Shown here: positions 16,900-24,969 of the stretch, piece by piece
Layout: every line of letters starts with the position of its first letter
Numbering within the stretch: position 1 is the first letter of the stretch
Source of the DNA: a virus
Direction: 5' to 3' (one strand)
Virus record (IMG/VR): IMGVR_UViG_3300028233_000199
Location: 1-25,366 of that record
Length of the DNA: 25,366 bases
Program-made: the position numbers and the translations under genes
Notes under the pieces: generated by a model
Database searches by the model: none
Told to the model about the DNA's origin: nothing
What the model saw: only the letters and a program-made list of their open reading frames with translations

Positions 16900-18285
16900 A
16901 TGGCGATATTCGGAAAGGCAGATCTATCGAAATCGAAATATATCGTAGCCATTGTTGCGAAGATCAACGCTGGTGATAAAATCAAAGTTAAAGGTGGTAA
17001 GTCATATAAATTTAAAAAGACAAATGATATTGTTGCCTTAGAAAAGGTGCAAACTAAGATTGCATCATATCAAAAAATTCTATATCCCAAGAATGAGTAT
17101 GCCGCAATCTTTACTGATGGGAAAATATCATTTCGATTTAACGATATTGATAAAGCTCCATTTTCTGGCATGGGAGGTGGATCGCGTAATGCCTTAGGAA
17201 AAAAACTTGCAGATGCGGGAGAACTTGCCACGGTCATGTCTTTAGTTAAAGATATTAAAACACCAAAGGATACAGGCCAAAAAATATTTGTTGACAATCC
17301 AGATGCATTTACTGCGTGGTACGAAACATTTCAATCTACTCGACCCGCAGTTGTCAAGATTACTGGAAATCTTAATCGCTTTGATATATTACATGATGCG
17401 ACAGACAAATCTGCATTTGCTACTGCGATTACTGCATTTACTAAGAAGGTAAAAATCGCTAAGGATTCTTGGAATCCAGCTGATATCTTTATCATTGATA
17501 AAGGCAAAAAGACAAAGATAATTAAAGATCTCCAATTCTGCGTTGACAATTACGAAGTTAAGGACGGATTAATATCTATGTTTAATAATAAGATGTACGA
17601 TTTTTATAAAAAGAAGCTTCTATATCCAGTATCTCTTAAGCAATTAGTGAGCAATAAACCATCTGTTGACTTTGCTAATGAACCTGGTAAGGCTAAGAAG
17701 GCAGCGTATAATATTGAGATTGCAAAATTCAATTGTAACTTAAGCGCTGAAGGTAAAGAAATTGGCTTATTCACATTTAAGAACACCGACACATTAAAGC
17801 AAATAAGCTTACAAGTTAGAGGATTTCCTCATGGATATGGCACAGCTCAAACTGAAATCACATCTGATGGTACGCCTTCTGGTGGTCGATTAGGCAAAAT
17901 TAGCACTGCAATCGTTGATCGTGTAATGGAAGAGTTTGATGATGAGAGAATCAAGAGTATTAAATATTTTGGAAGAACACCAGAGGTGTTTGAAGCATTT
18001 GATAAAACCCGAATCGCAGAAATTTATAAAATGTACCAGACAGTATCTAAACACAAAAAAGTTCAAGACCAAAATAAATTAAAGAAATCCGAGTTTGAGG
18101 ACTTGATTGCAAAAGCACAAAGTGATATGGATATTGCAGCTAATCTTTGTATGAAGATACAAGGTCTTAAAATGATGCATTTCTTTGTTACTAATGAAAA
18201 GAATATTTCTACTATCATGAATAAAATGATTAACGGAGCAAAGAAGATCAGCGATGACAACGGTTTCTTCATTAAAATTTATTAA
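16900..18285 (+). CDS. Large late protein of unknown function, possible nuclease-like core
   Basis: 461 residues, lysine-rich, no membrane segments. Starts one base after the preceding stop. Recognisable stretches are S-G-M-G-G-G-S-R-N near 90, W-N-P-A-D-I-F-I-I-D near 190 followed about 55 residues later by P-V-S-L-K-Q-L, and the Gly-rich R-G-F-P-H-G-Y-G-T-A-Q-T-E-I. The N-P-A-D-I ... S-L-K pairing is reminiscent of PD-(D/E)XK restriction-type nucleases with a Ser in place of the acidic residue, but this is weak. Unlike most genes around it, the N terminus lacks the FKxF capsid-targeting pattern. It is expected in the virion or prohead from its operon only. Confidence 0.55.
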   Translation: MAIFGKADLSKSKYIVAIVAKINAGDKIKVKGGKSYKFKKTNDIVALEKVQTKIASYQKILYPKNEYAAIFTDGKISFRFNDIDKAPFSGMGGGSRNALGKKLADAGELATVMSLVKDIKTPKDTGQKIFVDNPDAFTAWYETFQSTRPAVVKITGNLNRFDILHDATDKSAFATAITAFTKKVKIAKDSWNPADIFIIDKGKKTKIIKDLQFCVDNYEVKDGLISMFNNKMYDFYKKKLLYPVSLKQLVSNKPSVDFANEPGKAKKAAYNIEIAKFNCNLSAEGKEIGLFTFKNTDTLKQISLQVRGFPHGYGTAQTEITSDGTPSGGRLGKISTAIVDRVMEEFDDERIKSIKYFGRTPEVFEAFDKTRIAEIYKMYQTVSKHKKVQDQNKLKKSEFEDLIAKAQSDMDIAANLCMKIQGLKMMHFFVTNEKNISTIMNKMINGAKKISDDNGFFIKIY

Positions 18286-18293: not shown

Positions 18294-18304
18294 GGAATAT
18301 GCAT

Positions 18305-18601
18305 ATGAAAACATTTAAGGAACACGTAATCGAAAAGGAGCAAGAACTTGAAGAAGGTTATGCAATCGATCTAACACCTTGGCAATTCTCACATCGAGGA
18401 CGACAACCCAAGGGTAAAGGAACATGGGCATTTAATTATAAAGCATCTTTAGATTCTGGTGGAATGATTGGAATGCAACAAGATACATTCTTTTCAAAAG
18501 CAATGTCAACATATAAAGACGCCGTTAAACAATTGACTAAATTTCTAAAGAAAGAGTTGAAAGTAAAACCAAAACAAGTTGAAATTAAACTAGCTCCATA
18601 A
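18305..18601 (+). CDS. Short basic putative internal protein with capsid-targeting N terminus
   Basis: 98 residues from the ATG at 18305, which has AGGA eight bases upstream; an ATG at 18299 would add Met-His and would be leaderless from the promoter at 18286. The N terminus MKTFKEHVIEKEQELEEG is close to the T4 internal-protein capsid-targeting peptide (T4: MKTYQEFIAE). L15-E-E17 followed by Gly fits the (L/I)-x-E prohead-protease rule. The predicted mature part (18-98) is rich in Lys, Arg, Gln and aromatic residues, ending in a basic helix (K-F-L-K-K-E-L-K-V-K), as expected for a DNA-associated internal protein. Function after injection unknown. Confidence 0.7.
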   Translation: MKTFKEHVIEKEQELEEGYAIDLTPWQFSHRGRQPKGKGTWAFNYKASLDSGGMIGMQQDTFFSKAMSTYKDAVKQLTKFLKKELKVKPKQVEIKLAP

Positions 18602-19539
18602 TGATATCGTTTAAGGCATTCCTAGTTGAAACTAAAATATCGCCAACATTCATTACTCATATTGAGACAATGAAACCAATCGATTTTCTGTCTCTCATTA
18701 AGGAGTTAGAATCTGAATATAAGGGCGTTCTTAAATTAAAGGATATATCTATTACTGAAAAGATTGATGGTAGCTCTCTTACGATTGGTCAAGATTCTAA
18801 AGGCAAGACATTTATTAATACTAAAATGTCTCAGCGGTATTTTAAGCCTGGCGATTTTACATCCTTTGCAACTTCTAAGGGTTATGATAACAGTATTAGC
18901 ATTAATTTTGATAATATACTAAAAGAAGTGCAGAATGATAAAAAGCTGCAGAGTGTACTTTCTAAATATAATACCGGAAATGGTATCGTTATTACTGGAG
19001 AGGTGCTTTATGTGCCACTTGCATCTGAGGCTAAGAATAACAAACTCCAATTTATTTTTATGGATTACGATAAAAAGAATTTAGGGGAAGAATGGACATT
19101 TGTACCATTCGATGTTCAAGACTTCGACGGAAACCCTATCGAAAATAAGGAAGAGATATTCAAAGCTTTATATAAGATTTCGACTAAGGCGCGTAAGTAC
19201 ACCAGTGCAAATTTAAAGATTGATTCTGATATAGATATCACGTTAAGCATTGATAAGGTTAAAAAGAATATTCTCTCTAAGTATGATAATATCGATGCAG
19301 CATTAGTGTCACGAAAAAAGATAGATAAACCTCTCAAAGATAAACTTAAACAAGAGATTGCTAAATACCAAACAGAGCTTTCAAATAAAATACTATCATA
19401 TGTAAGAGCTGGAAAGTTTGGAGATGATTTCGAAGGCATCGTTCTTAAAACAAAATCAGGTACTACACTAAAGGCCACTTCATCTAGATTTAAAGATCGC
19501 AGAGCAAAACTAAAAGATATAAAATTTAAAAAGAAATGA
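18601..19539 (+). CDS. KxDG-type nucleotidyltransferase (RNA/DNA ligase-like) with capsid-targeting N terminus
   Basis: 312 residues. Ligase motifs are visible: motif I E53-K54-I-D-G57-S-S with K54 the AMP-accepting lysine; motif III-like T-G133-E134-V-L-Y; motif IIIa-like L-Q-F-I-F-M-D-Y; motif IV F-E278-G-I-V-L-K283; and motif V around L290-K291. These catalyse adenylation of the enzyme and transfer of AMP to a 5' phosphate end. The size is near T4 Rnl2 (334), but RNA or DNA preference is unclear. The first ten residues, MISFKAFLVE, align position by position with T4's MKTYQEFIAE, with E10 at the known T4 cut position, so the enzyme may be packaged in the capsid and trimmed. Starts with TAATG overlap. 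Confidence 0.72.
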   Translation: MISFKAFLVETKISPTFITHIETMKPIDFLSLIKELESEYKGVLKLKDISITEKIDGSSLTIGQDSKGKTFINTKMSQRYFKPGDFTSFATSKGYDNSISINFDNILKEVQNDKKLQSVLSKYNTGNGIVITGEVLYVPLASEAKNNKLQFIFMDYDKKNLGEEWTFVPFDVQDFDGNPIENKEEIFKALYKISTKARKYTSANLKIDSDIDITLSIDKVKKNILSKYDNIDAALVSRKKIDKPLKDKLKQEIAKYQTELSNKILSYVRAGKFGDDFEGIVLKTKSGTTLKATSSRFKDRRAKLKDIKFKKK

Positions 19540-20429
19540 TAAACTTTAAACAATTTATACAAATCAATGAAGGCGGAAATGCTGTCGAAGGAGTTGTTGG
19601 TATCAACCAAGAAAACTCGATTGCCACTGTAAAATCTGTATTTAAAGATTATTTAAAGCTTCTTGGTCTTAGCGAAAAAGATACTGCATTGCTAGGTTCT
19701 ACTGGAAAGAAAGCTCCTAAAGCAGTTTCAGGAGATATTGATATTGCTCTTTCTTCTCGAGAATTACTTAAGCATAAGAACGTATCTACATTTGGTGACA
19801 TGATAGACCTTATCATTAACATCACAAAGAAAAAGGGATATAAATTTAGAGATCTGCGAACTATTGGCATTGTTTCGGTTGGGTATCCAATTACAAATGT
19901 AGATGGTAAACAAGAAGGTGAAACTGTACAACTTGATTTCATGCTCGTTGATAATGTTAAGCTCGCTTCTTGGTCTTATTATTCTCCTTCATATCTTGAA
20001 TCAAGCCTAAAGGGATTATACCGAAACGAATTGTTTTACGCTGTTGCTAAGTTTGCTGGATTGAAAGTAAAGGAAATGTCAAACGATAAGACACCTATTA
20101 CTTGGGACCGTTTTTGGTTCGATTTATCGAGCGGCTTACAAAAAGGAACTCAAACTCTAAAATCTCCTAAAACTGGAAAAGTTACTAAGAGCGCCAAGAA
20201 AGTAAAACCAGCAGAAATTTTAAGTGATGATCCTGACACAATTGTTAAGTATCTCTTTGGAGATAAATATAAGGCTAATCAACTGTTAACTTTTGAGCAA
20301 GCTTTAAAAGCAGTACAATCATCTTCTTTCCCGCATAAGAAATATCGCAAAGACATCTATAAGATGGCTAAAGAAGGTCTCCTAAAAAAGAAATATCCAG
20401 TGCCAGAGTCGTTAGATAGATTGGCGTAA
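19536..20429 (+). CDS. Pol-beta superfamily nucleotidyltransferase with capsid-targeting N terminus
   Basis: 297 residues. The catalytic pattern is complete: G54-S55, D67-I-D69-I-A in S-G-D-I-D-I-A-L-S, and the third carboxylate D134 in V-Q-L-D-F-M-L-V. This is the minimal nucleotidyltransferase fold of pol-beta, tRNA nucleotidyltransferases and aminoglycoside-type enzymes. A helical segment follows (E-L-F-Y-A-V-A-K-F-A-G-L), and the last 90 residues are Lys-rich. The N terminus MINFKQFIQINEG fits a capsid-targeting peptide with an I10-N-E12/Gly cleavage site. It overlaps the ligase-like gene by 4 bases (ATGA), and the two may form an end-healing/sealing pair. Substrate (RNA 3' end, nucleotide, protein) is unknown. 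Confidence 0.72.
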   Translation: MINFKQFIQINEGGNAVEGVVGINQENSIATVKSVFKDYLKLLGLSEKDTALLGSTGKKAPKAVSGDIDIALSSRELLKHKNVSTFGDMIDLIINITKKKGYKFRDLRTIGIVSVGYPITNVDGKQEGETVQLDFMLVDNVKLASWSYYSPSYLESSLKGLYRNELFYAVAKFAGLKVKEMSNDKTPITWDRFWFDLSSGLQKGTQTLKSPKTGKVTKSAKKVKPAEILSDDPDTIVKYLFGDKYKANQLLTFEQALKAVQSSSFPHKKYRKDIYKMAKEGLLKKKYPVPESLDRLA

Positions 20430-20434
20430 TTGTG

Positions 20435-20463
20435 TTTACAAATCGTATAAATATAAGTATAAT
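20435..20463 (+). promoter_or_regulatory. Sigma70-type promoter overlapping a late promoter
   Basis: TTTACA at 20435-20440, a 17-base spacer and TATAAT at 20458-20463. The spacer contains an exact TATAAATA at 20446-20453. A leader of about 10 bases runs to the ATG at 20479. Confidence 0.65.
20446..20453 (+). promoter_or_regulatory. T4-type late promoter TATAAATA inside the sigma70 spacer
   Basis: An exact late box within the spacer of the promoter at 20435-20463, 25 bases before the ATG at 20479. Confidence 0.6.
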
Positions 20464-20478
20464 TAACTTCTTATAAAA

Positions 20479-20673
20479 ATGAAATCAGAAAATAGCAACA
20501 TGAATAAATTACCAGAGAAAGTTTTAAACTTTAAAGATTTTTTAGTGGTAGACTATACTCAACAAGCTGGCGCTGATATCGATCCCGATGGTATGTTAGC
20601 ATATAAAACCGCTAAAAGAAAGAAATTGCATTCAGGCGGTGGACCATCAGAATCAACCGTAAAGAAAAAATAG
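20479..20673 (+). CDS. Very small putative internal protein
   Basis: 64 residues; the eighth codon is also ATG and could be the true start. It contains V-L-N-F-K-D-F-L-V-V-D-Y, the same FKxFL core as its neighbours but placed deeper and without the Glu of the cleavage rule. The C terminus is basic and Gly/Ser-rich (A-K-R-K-K-L-H-S-G-G-G-P-S). No domain known. It is the only gene in the window under the combined early/late promoter, and it ends one base before the next gene. Confidence 0.55.
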   Translation: MKSENSNMNKLPEKVLNFKDFLVVDYTQQAGADIDPDGMLAYKTAKRKKLHSGGGPSESTVKKK

Positions 20674-20674
20674 T

Positions 20675-22981
20675 ATGTTTGTAAAAGGATTTAAACAGTT
20701 CAACGAGGAAAAGACTAAAGCGGTAACATTTACCTATGGGAGATTTAATCCTCCGACTATTGGTCATGAGAAACTTATTCTTGAGGTAATCAAAGCTGCA
20801 CGTGGTGGCGATTATAAGATTTTCGTATCGCAGTCTAATAAGCCTAAGTCTGATCCTTTGCAGTATAAAGAAAAAGTTGGAATCATGCGTAAGATGTTTC
20901 CAAAGTATGCACGAAATATCATACTTGACGAAAAACTTAAAACTGTATTTGACATATGTGTATCGTTATATAATCAAGGATACACAGATTTAACAATGGT
21001 GGTTGGTTCAGATAGAATCAAAGAATTTAAAACTCTACTTCTTAAATACAACGGATCAAAGGCACGCCACGGATTCTACGAATTTGGTAATATTTCTTTT
21101 CAATCTGCTGGCGAGCGTGATCCTGATTCAGATGATGTTTCTGGAATGTCAGCCTCAAAAATGAGAGCAGCTGCTGTATCTGGTGATTTTCAATCTTTTG
21201 CAGACGGTCTTCCAAAATCCTTTGGTGATAAGCTATCGGTGTTTAACCTTCTTCGTAAAAGAATGGGATTGAAAGAAATGGTTAACTTTCGTAAACACGT
21301 ACAGCTTCCAACAGTTTCAGAAAAACGAGAAAGGTTTATCTCTGGTGAAATCTTCAATGTTGGAGATAGAGTTCAGTGCCAAAAGTCGAATCAAAATTTT
21401 ACAATAGCTGAGCGTTGCTCAAACTATGTTCTAAGCTCTATCGGTACTAAGTACTTTATTAATGATCTCGAAGAATATCTCGATGAGAATGTTAAGTACC
21501 ACGCCGGCCTATCTAAATCTACTAAAGATAAAAGAAAAGCACAGTTTAAAAAGCAGGCCAAAATGGATGATGATAATCCAGATGCATATAAGCCTGCACC
21601 CGGCGATGCACAAGCAAAGACGAAACCTTCCAAATATACCAAAAAATTTAAAGATATGTTTGGCGAAGAATCTCTTGAAGAAGGTGTAGATGATCCTGCA
21701 ATTTTTAAAGCAATCTTTCTTGCTGGCGGGCCAGGTTCTGGTAAATCGTTCACTGTTGGTAAAACTGGCCTCACAGCTCTTGGTTTCAAGGTTGTCAACT
21801 CAGATGATAAATTTGAAATTGCCTTAAAAAAGGCCGACCTTGAACCAACACCAAAAAATATCTATAGCCCAAAAGGACAAAAACTTCGGAGTAGATCAAA
21901 GGAATTAACAGCAAAGCAACAAGATCATTATATCAATGGACGTCTTGGTTTAGTTATTGATGGAACTGGTAAAGACTATGCTAAGATCAAGAAACAATCT
22001 GAACTACTTAAAACCATTGGATATGATATAGCGATGATTTTTGTTAATACTGATCTTGATACAGCACAGTTTCGTAATAATAAACGTTCAAGAAGTTTGC
22101 CAGATGATCAAGTAAAGAAAATGTGGCAAGAAGTTCAAAACAATCTTGGTAAATTCCAATCGATGTTTGGCTCTAATTTCGTTATTATTGATAATTCTGA
22201 TGGTTCGAATATTGAGAAAGCGACAACATCGGCTTATAAGAAAATGGCTAAGTTTGCTAAAGAAGCTCCTAAGAATAATATTGCAAGAAGTTGGATTAAG
22301 AAGCAACTTGGAGAAGAGACTGAGATACTGATCTCTGAAAATAAAAAAGGAATTCAAAATAAAGCTAAAGCTACTGGTATTTCATACTCGATTCTAAAGA
22401 AAGTATTCGACCGCGGAGTTGCAGCTTGGAGAACTGGTCATCGACCTGGAACTACTCCATCCCAATGGGGATTTGCACGAATTAATTCGTTTGCTACGGG
22501 TGGTAAGACTAGAACGACTGCTGATAAAGATCTTTGGGCCCAACATAAAGGAAAGAAAGAGTCTATTGAAGAATCAAAAGATTTCGAACCGCATTGGATG
22601 TATGATCCTAAAACCGGGAAAAAAGCATGGGCAAAGGTTAAAGCTGATCACGATAGATTAAATAAAAAGGGTTGGGTTCATGAGCCGGTCGAAGCTTTAG
22701 ATTACGGCACGTCTGCAACAACAAAAACATTTAAACAATATACTCCTGGTCAAAAGATTGAAGAAGGAGAAGGTAAGTATAAAGGTGAAACTTGGGAGCA
22801 GGGATACAAACGCAGAGTTGTTAAAACCTCTGACCCCGCTCACCTCGAAAAGGGTTATAAATGGCGGATAAAGGGAAAAGAACGCCCAGAAATTTCTATT
22901 AAGCTATATAAAGAAAAACCGGATTTTAAAGAATATAGCAAGCAAATGGAACGAGTGGCTGGTCATGAATTTGGAAAATAA
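20675..22981 (+). CDS. Giant fusion: nucleotide adenylyl/cytidylyltransferase + P-loop kinase + DUF5824-like, probable prohead polyprotein
   Basis: 768 residues. Region 16-200: HxGH-type nucleotidyltransferase (G22-R-F-N-P-P-T-I-G-H31; S159-A-S-K-M-R164 as the second phosphate-binding motif), as in NMN adenylyltransferases or cytidylyltransferases. Region 272-331: Lys-rich linker seen in T4-like virion proteins. Region 337-540: P-loop kinase, G351-G-P-G-S-G-K-S358, with a V-V-N-S-D-D segment resembling zeta-toxin/polynucleotide-kinase enzymes. Region about 556-628: a DUF5824-like block (A-A-W-R-T-G-H-R-P-G-T-T). Regions 634-697 and 698-768: two small domains. (L/I)-x-E sites at 334-336, 553-555, 631-633 and 695-697 fall at the domain borders. 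The N terminus has G-F-K-Q-F-N-E-E. Activities are motif-based; processing is inferred. Confidence 0.72.
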   Translation: MFVKGFKQFNEEKTKAVTFTYGRFNPPTIGHEKLILEVIKAARGGDYKIFVSQSNKPKSDPLQYKEKVGIMRKMFPKYARNIILDEKLKTVFDICVSLYNQGYTDLTMVVGSDRIKEFKTLLLKYNGSKARHGFYEFGNISFQSAGERDPDSDDVSGMSASKMRAAAVSGDFQSFADGLPKSFGDKLSVFNLLRKRMGLKEMVNFRKHVQLPTVSEKRERFISGEIFNVGDRVQCQKSNQNFTIAERCSNYVLSSIGTKYFINDLEEYLDENVKYHAGLSKSTKDKRKAQFKKQAKMDDDNPDAYKPAPGDAQAKTKPSKYTKKFKDMFGEESLEEGVDDPAIFKAIFLAGGPGSGKSFTVGKTGLTALGFKVVNSDDKFEIALKKADLEPTPKNIYSPKGQKLRSRSKELTAKQQDHYINGRLGLVIDGTGKDYAKIKKQSELLKTIGYDIAMIFVNTDLDTAQFRNNKRSRSLPDDQVKKMWQEVQNNLGKFQSMFGSNFVIIDNSDGSNIEKATTSAYKKMAKFAKEAPKNNIARSWIKKQLGEETEILISENKKGIQNKAKATGISYSILKKVFDRGVAAWRTGHRPGTTPSQWGFARINSFATGGKTRTTADKDLWAQHKGKKESIEESKDFEPHWMYDPKTGKKAWAKVKADHDRLNKKGWVHEPVEALDYGTSATTKTFKQYTPGQKIEEGEGKYKGETWEQGYKRRVVKTSDPAHLEKGYKWRIKGKERPEISIKLYKEKPDFKEYSKQMERVAGHEFGK

Positions 22982-23055: not shown

Positions 23056-24969
23056 ATGAATATAAAAGAACAAGAAATTATCGAGAAATTTATTTCTGAG
23101 GCATCAACCGCTGATTACGCAAAGCTTTCTACAAAAGAATTAAAAGATTTGTTAAGTATCTTCAAAAACGTTGGAAGATCAGCAGCAAAGCCAATATTGC
23201 GTTCTATTAGTGCAGAGCTTAATAGTCGCCTAAAAGAAAATTCCGAAGAGCTTGAAGAAGCTAAAGTAGTTCCATTTAAGAAGCTTGAACAAGCTTGGAC
23301 CAGAACAAACGGCGATAAAGCCAAACAAGCAAAGCTTATTAAAAAGCATGATTTAAAGAAGCTTATTTCCTCTGTCCGTCCTGGAGAAATTAAACTTGGC
23401 ATTAAAAATAAGCTATTAGGAACAACAAAGGCTGCAACTGCGGTTGGATTAGATTTAGATGATGAGTTGATTTTTATTACAAATAATCCTCTTAAAATCA
23501 TTTACCCTAAAAAGAGCACTCGTCGTCCTGAAGGAGAAGAGATTAAGGAATCAACAGTTGTAAAGGATGTTAAAACTCTTCGATTTGAAAAAATAGTATC
23601 CCTTACAATTAAAGAAGACTGCGAAGATATTATCGAATCTTTTATTAGTGAATCTAATCTTGAAGTTGATTCTACTCCAGCTCAAATCCGAACAGCATAT
23701 AAGACATATAGTCTTAGCGAATCAGCTGCCAATTTACGTAAGCTAAAAGAAGCTTCTGCTTCAGATATTAAAAAGGTCCTAGCGGCAGCGAAAAAGGCTG
23801 GTGGCACGGTTAAAGGAAATCAAATCGATTTTGGCATGGGTGCAGTAATCGATGTATCTATTGAAAAAGGTAAAATTAAGCTCGATGCTGGTTTATCTAA
23901 CGGAGTAGAATACTTTAAAAATGCTAAAGATGCCATCATGGCATTTGAATCAGTTGAACTTGAAGAAGCAGTCAAATGGTGGACAGTTACTATTACTAAG
24001 AAAACTGGTAAACTTTTTAAAGGACAAACGGTTGATGTGAAAGCAAGTAACTCTGCTCAAGCTATTAAGAAAGGTCTTAAGCAAATGAAGGCTGATCCAA
24101 TGACTGTACCAAGCGATAGTGTTGATGCAGTATTAGGAGAATCTGTCGAGCTTGAAGAAGCTAAAATACCAAGTTCTAATATATCTAAATTTTCAAGTCC
24201 TCAAGCAGCGAAGCGAGCAGCTTCAAAACAGAAATATAAAACTCAAATATTTATGGGTGATGATGGCTTGTTTTGGGTTCCTTCAACAAACAAAGAAGCA
24301 GGACAGTTGAAAAAAGATGGATATGAAGTATACGAATCAGCTGATCTTGAAGAAGCAATCAAAGTTAAGACTCATAAAGGCATGTTTTCTATGAAAAAGG
24401 GAGAAGAATCCCTAAGAAAGTGGGTTGATGGAATAGTGATCATGAGCGACGCTGTAAAGAAGAATCAACGCAAAACTGTTGCGCAGAATATTGTTAAAGC
24501 AATTGAATCTGGTAAGATTAAGAATGCTGATCTAACACAAGATCTCGGCGCTCTTATTGGTATTAAATCACCAAAAGGTATGGAAGCACCAGCTAATACA
24601 GTAAAAGCTAAATTAAAAGATCTTGGTTTGAATGAAGCTAAGAACGACACTCAGAAAGATATCGAATCATTGAAGAAAATGATCAAGAATCCTGATCCCA
24701 AGAGAGTTAAATCGTATGGTGGTACTAAATACGTTGATATGCTAAAGAGCAAATTGGCTAAGTTACAAGAATCAACTGAGCTTGAAGAAGCAAACAATAG
24801 ACTTGTAGCTCACAGTCCAGCTGCAGCCCAGAGACTCATTAAAAAACTCAAGAATAAATTTAGTGGATATTCGTGGGATCAACGAATTAAAGGCAATGAA
24901 GTCATTTATCCAATGGAGCCTCACATTATTAGATTCATTAAAAAACAACCAGAGGTCGCAACTATTTAA
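23056..24969 (+). CDS. Putative prohead-internal polyprotein with repeated ELEEA junctions
   Basis: 637 residues, Lys/Ala/Glu-rich, helical and without membrane segments. It begins with a capsid-targeting-like helix ending I13-S-E15-Ala. The same junction recurs: L66-E-E-A, L302-E-E-A, L366-E-E-A, L431-E-E-A and L576-E-E-A, each preceded by an acidic residue and mostly by E-S-x. Related sites are I197-S-E-S, L230-K-E-A and L525-N-E-A. They split the chain into small units, mostly 50-95 residues (305-368, 369-433, 434-527, 528-578, 579-637). The rule (L/I)-x-E then small residue is that of T4 gp21. Some units look like distinct small domains (W-W-T-V-T-I-T-K-K; F-W-V-P-S-T-N). No enzyme motif found. 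Scaffold or internal-protein role is inferred. Confidence 0.65.
   Translation: MNIKEQEIIEKFISEASTADYAKLSTKELKDLLSIFKNVGRSAAKPILRSISAELNSRLKENSEELEEAKVVPFKKLEQAWTRTNGDKAKQAKLIKKHDLKKLISSVRPGEIKLGIKNKLLGTTKAATAVGLDLDDELIFITNNPLKIIYPKKSTRRPEGEEIKESTVVKDVKTLRFEKIVSLTIKEDCEDIIESFISESNLEVDSTPAQIRTAYKTYSLSESAANLRKLKEASASDIKKVLAAAKKAGGTVKGNQIDFGMGAVIDVSIEKGKIKLDAGLSNGVEYFKNAKDAIMAFESVELEEAVKWWTVTITKKTGKLFKGQTVDVKASNSAQAIKKGLKQMKADPMTVPSDSVDAVLGESVELEEAKIPSSNISKFSSPQAAKRAASKQKYKTQIFMGDDGLFWVPSTNKEAGQLKKDGYEVYESADLEEAIKVKTHKGMFSMKKGEESLRKWVDGIVIMSDAVKKNQRKTVAQNIVKAIESGKIKNADLTQDLGALIGIKSPKGMEAPANTVKAKLKDLGLNEAKNDTQKDIESLKKMIKNPDPKRVKSYGGTKYVDMLKSKLAKLQESTELEEANNRLVAHSPAAAQRLIKKLKNKFSGYSWDQRIKGNEVIYPMEPHIIRFIKKQPEVATI
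23242..24797 (+). repeat. Interspersed short repeat encoding (E)S-x-(E/D)-L-E-E-A
   Basis: Five near-identical stretches with the core CTTGAAGAAGC lie at about 23242, 23947, 24139, 24334 and 24770, most preceded by GAATC. All are in frame and encode the same junction peptide between otherwise unrelated segments. Confidence 0.8.

Follow-up and report, generated by a model that had tools for sequence, protein, structure and literature searches.

The pairing of RNA ligases with Pol-beta enzymes and the injection of proteins by phage T4 are already known, each separately from the other. RlaP is a phage Pol-beta nucleotidyltransferase (NTase) linked to ATP-grasp RNA ligases and predicted to restore nucleotides lost to anticodon nucleases (PMC7824862, section 3.4.9). 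In T4, the first 10 residues of the internal protein IPIII suffice for packaging, residues 4 and 7 acting in targeting and residues 8 and 10 in processing, and the prohead protease gp21 cuts after L/I-x-E (PMC9026906). From Alt only six residues are removed, at ITE (PMC5694885). The T4 internal proteins bearing such leaders are ejected with the DNA (PMC9026906). In the open-access literature, no published report of a packaged or injected ligase–NTase combination was found.

The gene pair analysed here resembles RlaP, as described in that section, in that both couple a Pol-beta NTase with an ATP-dependent RNA ligase in phages. It differs in its NTase family, the 41 members of which match no RlaP Pfam model at E up to 1, and the RlaP account in section 3.4.9 of PMC7824862 does not include capsid-targeting leaders, protease sites or virion packaging. 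With IPI–IPIII and Alt of T4 the pair shares a short N-terminal leader, aromatic residues at positions 4 and 7, and a gp21-type L/I-x-E site (PMC9026906, PMC5694885). The cargo differs, being an ADP-ribosyltransferase or a restriction inhibitor in T4 and a predicted ligase/NTase pair here. Judged from the sequences, what would be new is that the NTase forms a family of its own, that capsid-targeting leaders come with conserved protease sites, that a GGN terminus is predicted to be exposed, and that polyprotein forms exist.

The ligase and nucleotidyltransferase genes

The window, meaning the whole 25.4-kb stretch of DNA analysed, is a fragmentary record from a virus. It carries T4-like replication genes (DNA polymerase, UvsX, DnaB-like helicase, primase and thymidylate synthase), which the gene pair adjoins, and the source virus is a marine T4-like phage. 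No head genes were found in this 25.4-kb fragment, and the window contained no tRNAs or Rfam elements. The two genes and their active-site features are the following:

18601..19539, plus strand: RNA-ligase-superfamily enzyme of 312 aa (PF09414 match; AlphaFold2 model near RNA ligases)
18760..18771, plus strand: ligase motif I, K54-I-D-G57, with the predicted adenylylated lysine (K54, D56 and G57 in 22/22)
19000..19002, plus strand: ligase motif III glutamate E134 (22/22)
19432..19473, plus strand: ligase motif IV, E278-G-I-V-L-K, to motif V, K291 (E278, G279 and V281 in 22/22; K291 in 20/22)
19536..19539, plus strand: ATGA start/stop overlap coupling the ligase and NTase genes, read from the sequence
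19536..20429, plus strand: Pol-beta/Pol X-like nucleotidyltransferase of 297 aa (AlphaFold2 model nearest DNA polymerases beta/lambda)
19695..19742, plus strand: NTase active-site segment G54-S-T-G-K-K..S-G-D67-I-D69 (invariant or nearly so in 41 homologues)
19935..19937, plus strand: third NTase carboxylate, D134 (41/41)

The sequence-only reading had described a 4-base overlap of the ORFs 18601-19539 and 19536-20429, and the ATGA at 19536-19539 bears this out. The residues it had picked out, K54-I-D-G and E278-G-I-V-L-K of the ligase and D67, D69 and D134 of the NTase, were all found at these positions and are invariant in distant relatives. Also its enzyme classes, KxDG ligase-like and pol-beta-type, are supported by the motifs and predicted structures and, for the ligase, by a profile.

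The ligase matched the PF09414 RNA_ligase profile with 36.5 bits (E 6.8e-9; curated cut-off 27). Altogether 21 of the 22 ligase family members matched PF09414 and one matched RNA_lig_T4_1, and no DNA-ligase Pfam match was found among the 22. The AlphaFold2 model (pLDDT 88) has the ligase nucleotidyltransferase fold, and its closest PDB folds were NgrRnl (Z 11.5), T4 Rnl2 (10.1), TbREL1 (9.8) and Rnl1 (9.7), the best DNA ligase reaching Z 8.5. The catalytic core fold and motifs I, III, IV and V are like those of T4 Rnl2, the Naegleria RNA ligase and TbREL1, but the identity to these enzymes is 11–17% and the N-terminal domain of NgrRnl is absent. Past the motif V residue K291 only 21 residues remain, leaving a nucleotidyltransferase core with almost no tail: no OB-fold domain was found after the catalytic core, nor a T4 Rnl2-type C-terminal domain after motif V, the alignment reaching only Rnl2 residue 234. 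PDB sequence searches gave no meaningful match. A tblastn search of the ligase against cultured phages gave no match at E 1e-3, and its weak matches (E up to 10) led to the Stenotrophomonas phage module. By profile, motifs and model, the product of ORF 18601-19539 is an RNA-ligase-superfamily enzyme with a predicted sealing activity.

The AlphaFold2 model of the NTase (pLDDT 93.8) aligned over residues 21-253 with residues 148-335 of Pol beta, covering palm and thumb (Z about 11). Among viral models, it was closest to uncharacterised phage proteins and then to annotated DNA polymerases of giant viruses. Palm, thumb, the GS..SGDxD motif and the third Asp are as in DNA polymerase X (Pol beta, lambda), while the NTase has neither the lyase nor the fingers domain of these enzymes. 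The catalytic triad and the triphosphate-site residues are conserved throughout, with G54, S55, K58, K59, G66, D67, D69, Q132 and D134 invariant in 41/41 sequences. No Pfam family was found for the window NTase and none convincing for its 40 relatives; the only Pfam matches noted among the 41 were to PF18765 in one (E 0.019) and PF22600 in two (E 0.0041), and the Pfam Pol X palm and thumb profiles had no significant match. No member matched a PHROG family. By these comparisons the NTase is a distinct family without a name, and its activity is likely to be the addition of nucleotides to a 3' end or in a gap.

The pair is flanked by three further genes relevant to the comparisons below:

18299..18601, plus strand: 100-aa protein with a CTS-like start (MHMKTFKEHVIEKEQELEEG), joined to the ligase gene by TAATG
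20479..20673, plus strand: 64-aa protein with a CTS-like stretch, LNFKDFLVVD
20675..22981, plus strand: 768-aa protein with an HxGH nucleotidylyltransferase, a P-loop kinase (Zeta/PNK-like) and DUF5824, a recurrent neighbour

A relative of the 768-aa protein, in L106, has a clear leader, MKSFKTFIKE. In L028 the neighbour is of NadM-Nudix type, and a role in NAD metabolism is therefore also possible. The 637-aa protein at 23056-24969 has no family match; its start, MNIKEQEIIEKFISEAS, holds ISE/A (here and below the slash marks the predicted cut position), and it may be another packaged protein. Upstream, the 461-aa protein at 16900-18285 (phrog_1462) has a WNPADI..YPVSLK stretch reminiscent of PD-(D/E)xK nucleases. 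An hhalign comparison (probability 1.3%) did not support its kinship with the nuclease-like genes of phages YB07, X1 and PA5oct.

Pairing and fusion in other phages

In a profile-style search, the NTase turned up at 80 viral loci and the ligase at 21; narrower alignments worked as queries, while very diverse ones lacked conserved stretches. In most close relatives the ligase is adjacent to the NTase or fused with it, and it lies next door in many of the NTase loci. Stenotrophomonas phage YB07, Xanthomonas phage X1 and Vibrio phage phiKT1024 each have distant relatives of both genes in a single cluster. NTase and ligase form a single chain in L037, L038, L098, L072-L074 and L047, and in L117 they do so in the reverse order. 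The third recurrent neighbour of the pair is the HxGH nucleotidylyltransferase.

In other loci, the neighbour of the NTase is a DUF6267 protein with KxDG and EG motifs like those of the ligase. Alignment of the DUF6267 family with the ligases gave a probability of 96.7% (E 3.5e-10), and DUF6267 is, on this sequence evidence, probably an unannotated ligase-like enzyme. The DUF6267 proteins (PF19782) of L041, L045, L061, L026 and others carry the ligase motifs and also LxE leaders.

Several other arrangements were seen. At L117:5974-8166, L047:5059-9723 and L116:191-1924, domains of the ligase, NTase or HxGH type are joined into polyprotein-like chains with LxE-type sites at the joints. A second, paralogous NTase starting with MSGVAG lies directly downstream of the first in loci of the range L056-L095 (e.g. 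L057:6948-9872), frequently joined to an HxGH domain in chains 500-1100 aa long. In phage YB07 (L014:7076-8678), the ORF of the nuclease-like protein and that of the ligase overlap, each in its own frame, and both match the 552-aa phrog_12709, which suggests a frameshift or a split gene.

Predicted leaders and cleavage sites, and the prohead protease

Both enzymes of the window start with a predicted leader:

18601..18630, plus strand: predicted ligase leader MISFKAFLVE, cut after E10 (T4 IPIII-type layout, disordered in the model, leaders of partner homologues)
19536..19571, plus strand: predicted NTase leader MINFKQFIQINE, cut before GGNAV (leaders of homologues)

The leaders are disordered in both models, with ligase residues 1-8 at pLDDT <50. 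The layout of MISFKAFLVE is that of the T4 IPIII leader at the residues known to matter (4, 7, 8, 10), and the features of a T4-type leader (about 10 residues, aromatic at 4 and 7, hydrophobic at 8) are present in MISFKAFLVE and MINFKQFI. The gp21-type L/I-x-E sites of the pair are FLVE/TK and INE/GGN. The core pattern combined with [LI]xE occurs in only four of the 30 window genes, and these are contiguous (18299-20673). Shuffling a leader's own residues produced the pattern in 0.7% of cases for the NTase and 5.6% for the ligase, so that one leader alone is weak evidence; the strong evidence for the leaders is comparative, not drawn from a single sequence.

The distinct NTase leaders number 45 and are 4-26 residues long. 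E is the last residue in 44 of them and [LI]xE the closing motif in 43, with GGN or a close variant following immediately; the background of [LI]xEGG was 10 in 318,526 residues of other ORFs. The sole leader without a terminal E, that of L076, probably reflects a wrong start call, MGGN beginning there at an internal Met. Thirteen NTase homologues are leaderless and start with MGGN, MSGM or MGGK. Of 28 leaders of ligases and DUF6267 proteins, 19 contain [LI]xE; shuffling gave 5.9 on average and never more than 12. At the domain-fusion junctions, all ten examined had [LIVM]xE in the 25 residues that precede the second domain (background frequencies 0.19-0.53), several of the ten proteins being near-copies and the independent cases therefore fewer than ten. 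Examples are NLLKE/GGNVF in L117 and KMLRE/NGSTKRVGIKHL in L116.

On a 58-sequence NTase tree, gains or losses of the leader number no fewer than three if only well-supported branches are counted, and eight by parsimony; both counts are approximate, since the tree includes a paralogue in one row and has some long branches. The leader states of NTase and ligase were paired significantly under the relaxed site rule (p 0.0025) and not under strict [LI] (p 0.22), relatedness being uncorrected in both. The cultured homologues found (YB07, X1, phiKT1024, PA5oct, Atu_ph07, immuto, Phosso and Lak) are all leaderless, and packaging is thus not universal.

In a 171-kb relative, G025, whose ligase is 43% identical to that of the window, the ligase, NTase and HxGH genes (120315-123670) all have leaders. 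G025 also encodes a gp21-family prohead protease at 80589 (E 8e-44). On either side of the protease gene lie terminase, portal, scaffold and capsid genes, which were identified by eye, on their sequence and order and not with profiles. Its capsid protein has YLNE/AGEP near the N-terminus, likely a cut site by analogy with T4. Of 28 other homologue records, several of them fragmentary, 15 had the gp21-type protease family. Other small proteins of G025 (98934-133763; L126-L128) start with the CTS-like leaders MKSFQTFLIE, MISFKHFISE and MIPFKDFIKE, pointing to a possibly larger set of packaged cargo.

Virion data were available for two phages with leaderless homologues. In PA5oct, gp253, a distant homologue of the NTase, is annotated as a structural protein by ESI-MS/MS. 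The same list flags UvsX, dNMP kinase and rIIB, and not the PA5oct ligase; the detection of gp253 may thus be carry-over, since replication enzymes were flagged too, and it lends weak support to packaging. In Atu_ph07, the pair (gp065, gp066) lies within CDS 31-76, a region from which 29 detected proteins are reported (PMC6102473).

The capsid-targeting signals that had been predicted for both enzymes from the window sequence are supported, much more strongly than by the window sequence alone, by the conserved protease sites, the shared leaders and the gp21-type protease in a close relative. Packaging and maturation of the pair are well supported as predictions.

Proposed packaging and role of the pair

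It is moderately probable that the pair is a nucleic-acid end-repair set, loaded into the head as T4-type internal proteins and injected. The comparative data point strongly to the first two steps: the short N-terminal leaders would bind the scaffold core and bring the enzymes into the prohead, where the gp21-type protease would cut after L/I-x-E and release the mature enzymes, the NTase now starting with Gly-Gly-Asn. At infection, the enzymes would leave the head along with the DNA, and injection of the pair is plausible by analogy with the T4 internal proteins. The Pol X-like NTase may then refill missing nucleotides at a 3' end or in a gap, and the ligase, adenylylated on K54, may seal the break. 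The earlier proposal that the pair repairs DNA nicks or host tRNA ends fits both the enzymes and the RlaP concept, and such an activity is plausible. Going by fold and Pfam only, RNA is slightly favoured over DNA as the substrate, for instance tRNAs cleaved by anticodon nucleases of the host.

It is somewhat unlikely that the packaged pair acts on DNA instead, filling gaps in the manner of Pol X and sealing nicks in the incoming phage genome before expression. The NTase model is nearest to the gap-filling DNA polymerases beta and lambda and, among viral models outside its own family, to annotated giant-virus DNA polymerases, and Pol X with a ligase makes a minimal gap-repair set, but the Pfam matches and best folds of the ligase are those of RNA ligases, and its core lacks a following OB-fold domain. 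The leaders and protease sites show prohead entry only, and the enzymes could in principle be packaged and cut but work in the head or in maturation, or be passive cargo, without injection. This is improbable given that such leaders, in T4, belong to internal proteins ejected along with the DNA (PMC9026906), and the full conservation of the catalytic residues argues against passive cargo.

That the leaders are not targeting signals at all, and the enzymes are cytosolic during infection like T4 Pnkp/Rnl1, would agree with the many phages that have leaderless homologues and with genes that adjoin replication and not head genes. Such a reading is given a low probability, as it leaves no other simple reason for an [LI]xE kept exactly before GGN across unrelated leaders of 4-26 residues, for the [LIVM]xE retained at fusion junctions, and for the protease in a close relative. 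Small Pol-beta NTases can also modify proteins or tRNA. The NTase could accordingly be an effector acting on proteins or tRNA ends, for example by AMPylation, and not a break-repair enzyme, and no Pfam or PHROG model matches the family; its repeated pairing and fusion with ligases and its Pol X-like palm and thumb make this quite unlikely.

Extended from the window to the family, the reading of an injected end-repair set becomes tentative: many large phages may preload their heads with a ligase and Pol X-like set, sometimes as a polyprotein, from which the protease would expose a conserved N-terminal Gly-Gly-Asn and which would be injected against host nuclease damage before phage expression. 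RNA repair by phages is usually pictured as relying on enzymes made once infection has begun, which is too late against fast anticodon-nuclease defences. A repair kit that is injected, if true, would act at time zero. The finding also ties the unannotated DUF6267 family to RNA ligases and defines an NTase family, and it gives a comparative rule for head-packaged enzymes in sequence data, an [L/I]xE directly before a conserved mature N-terminus.
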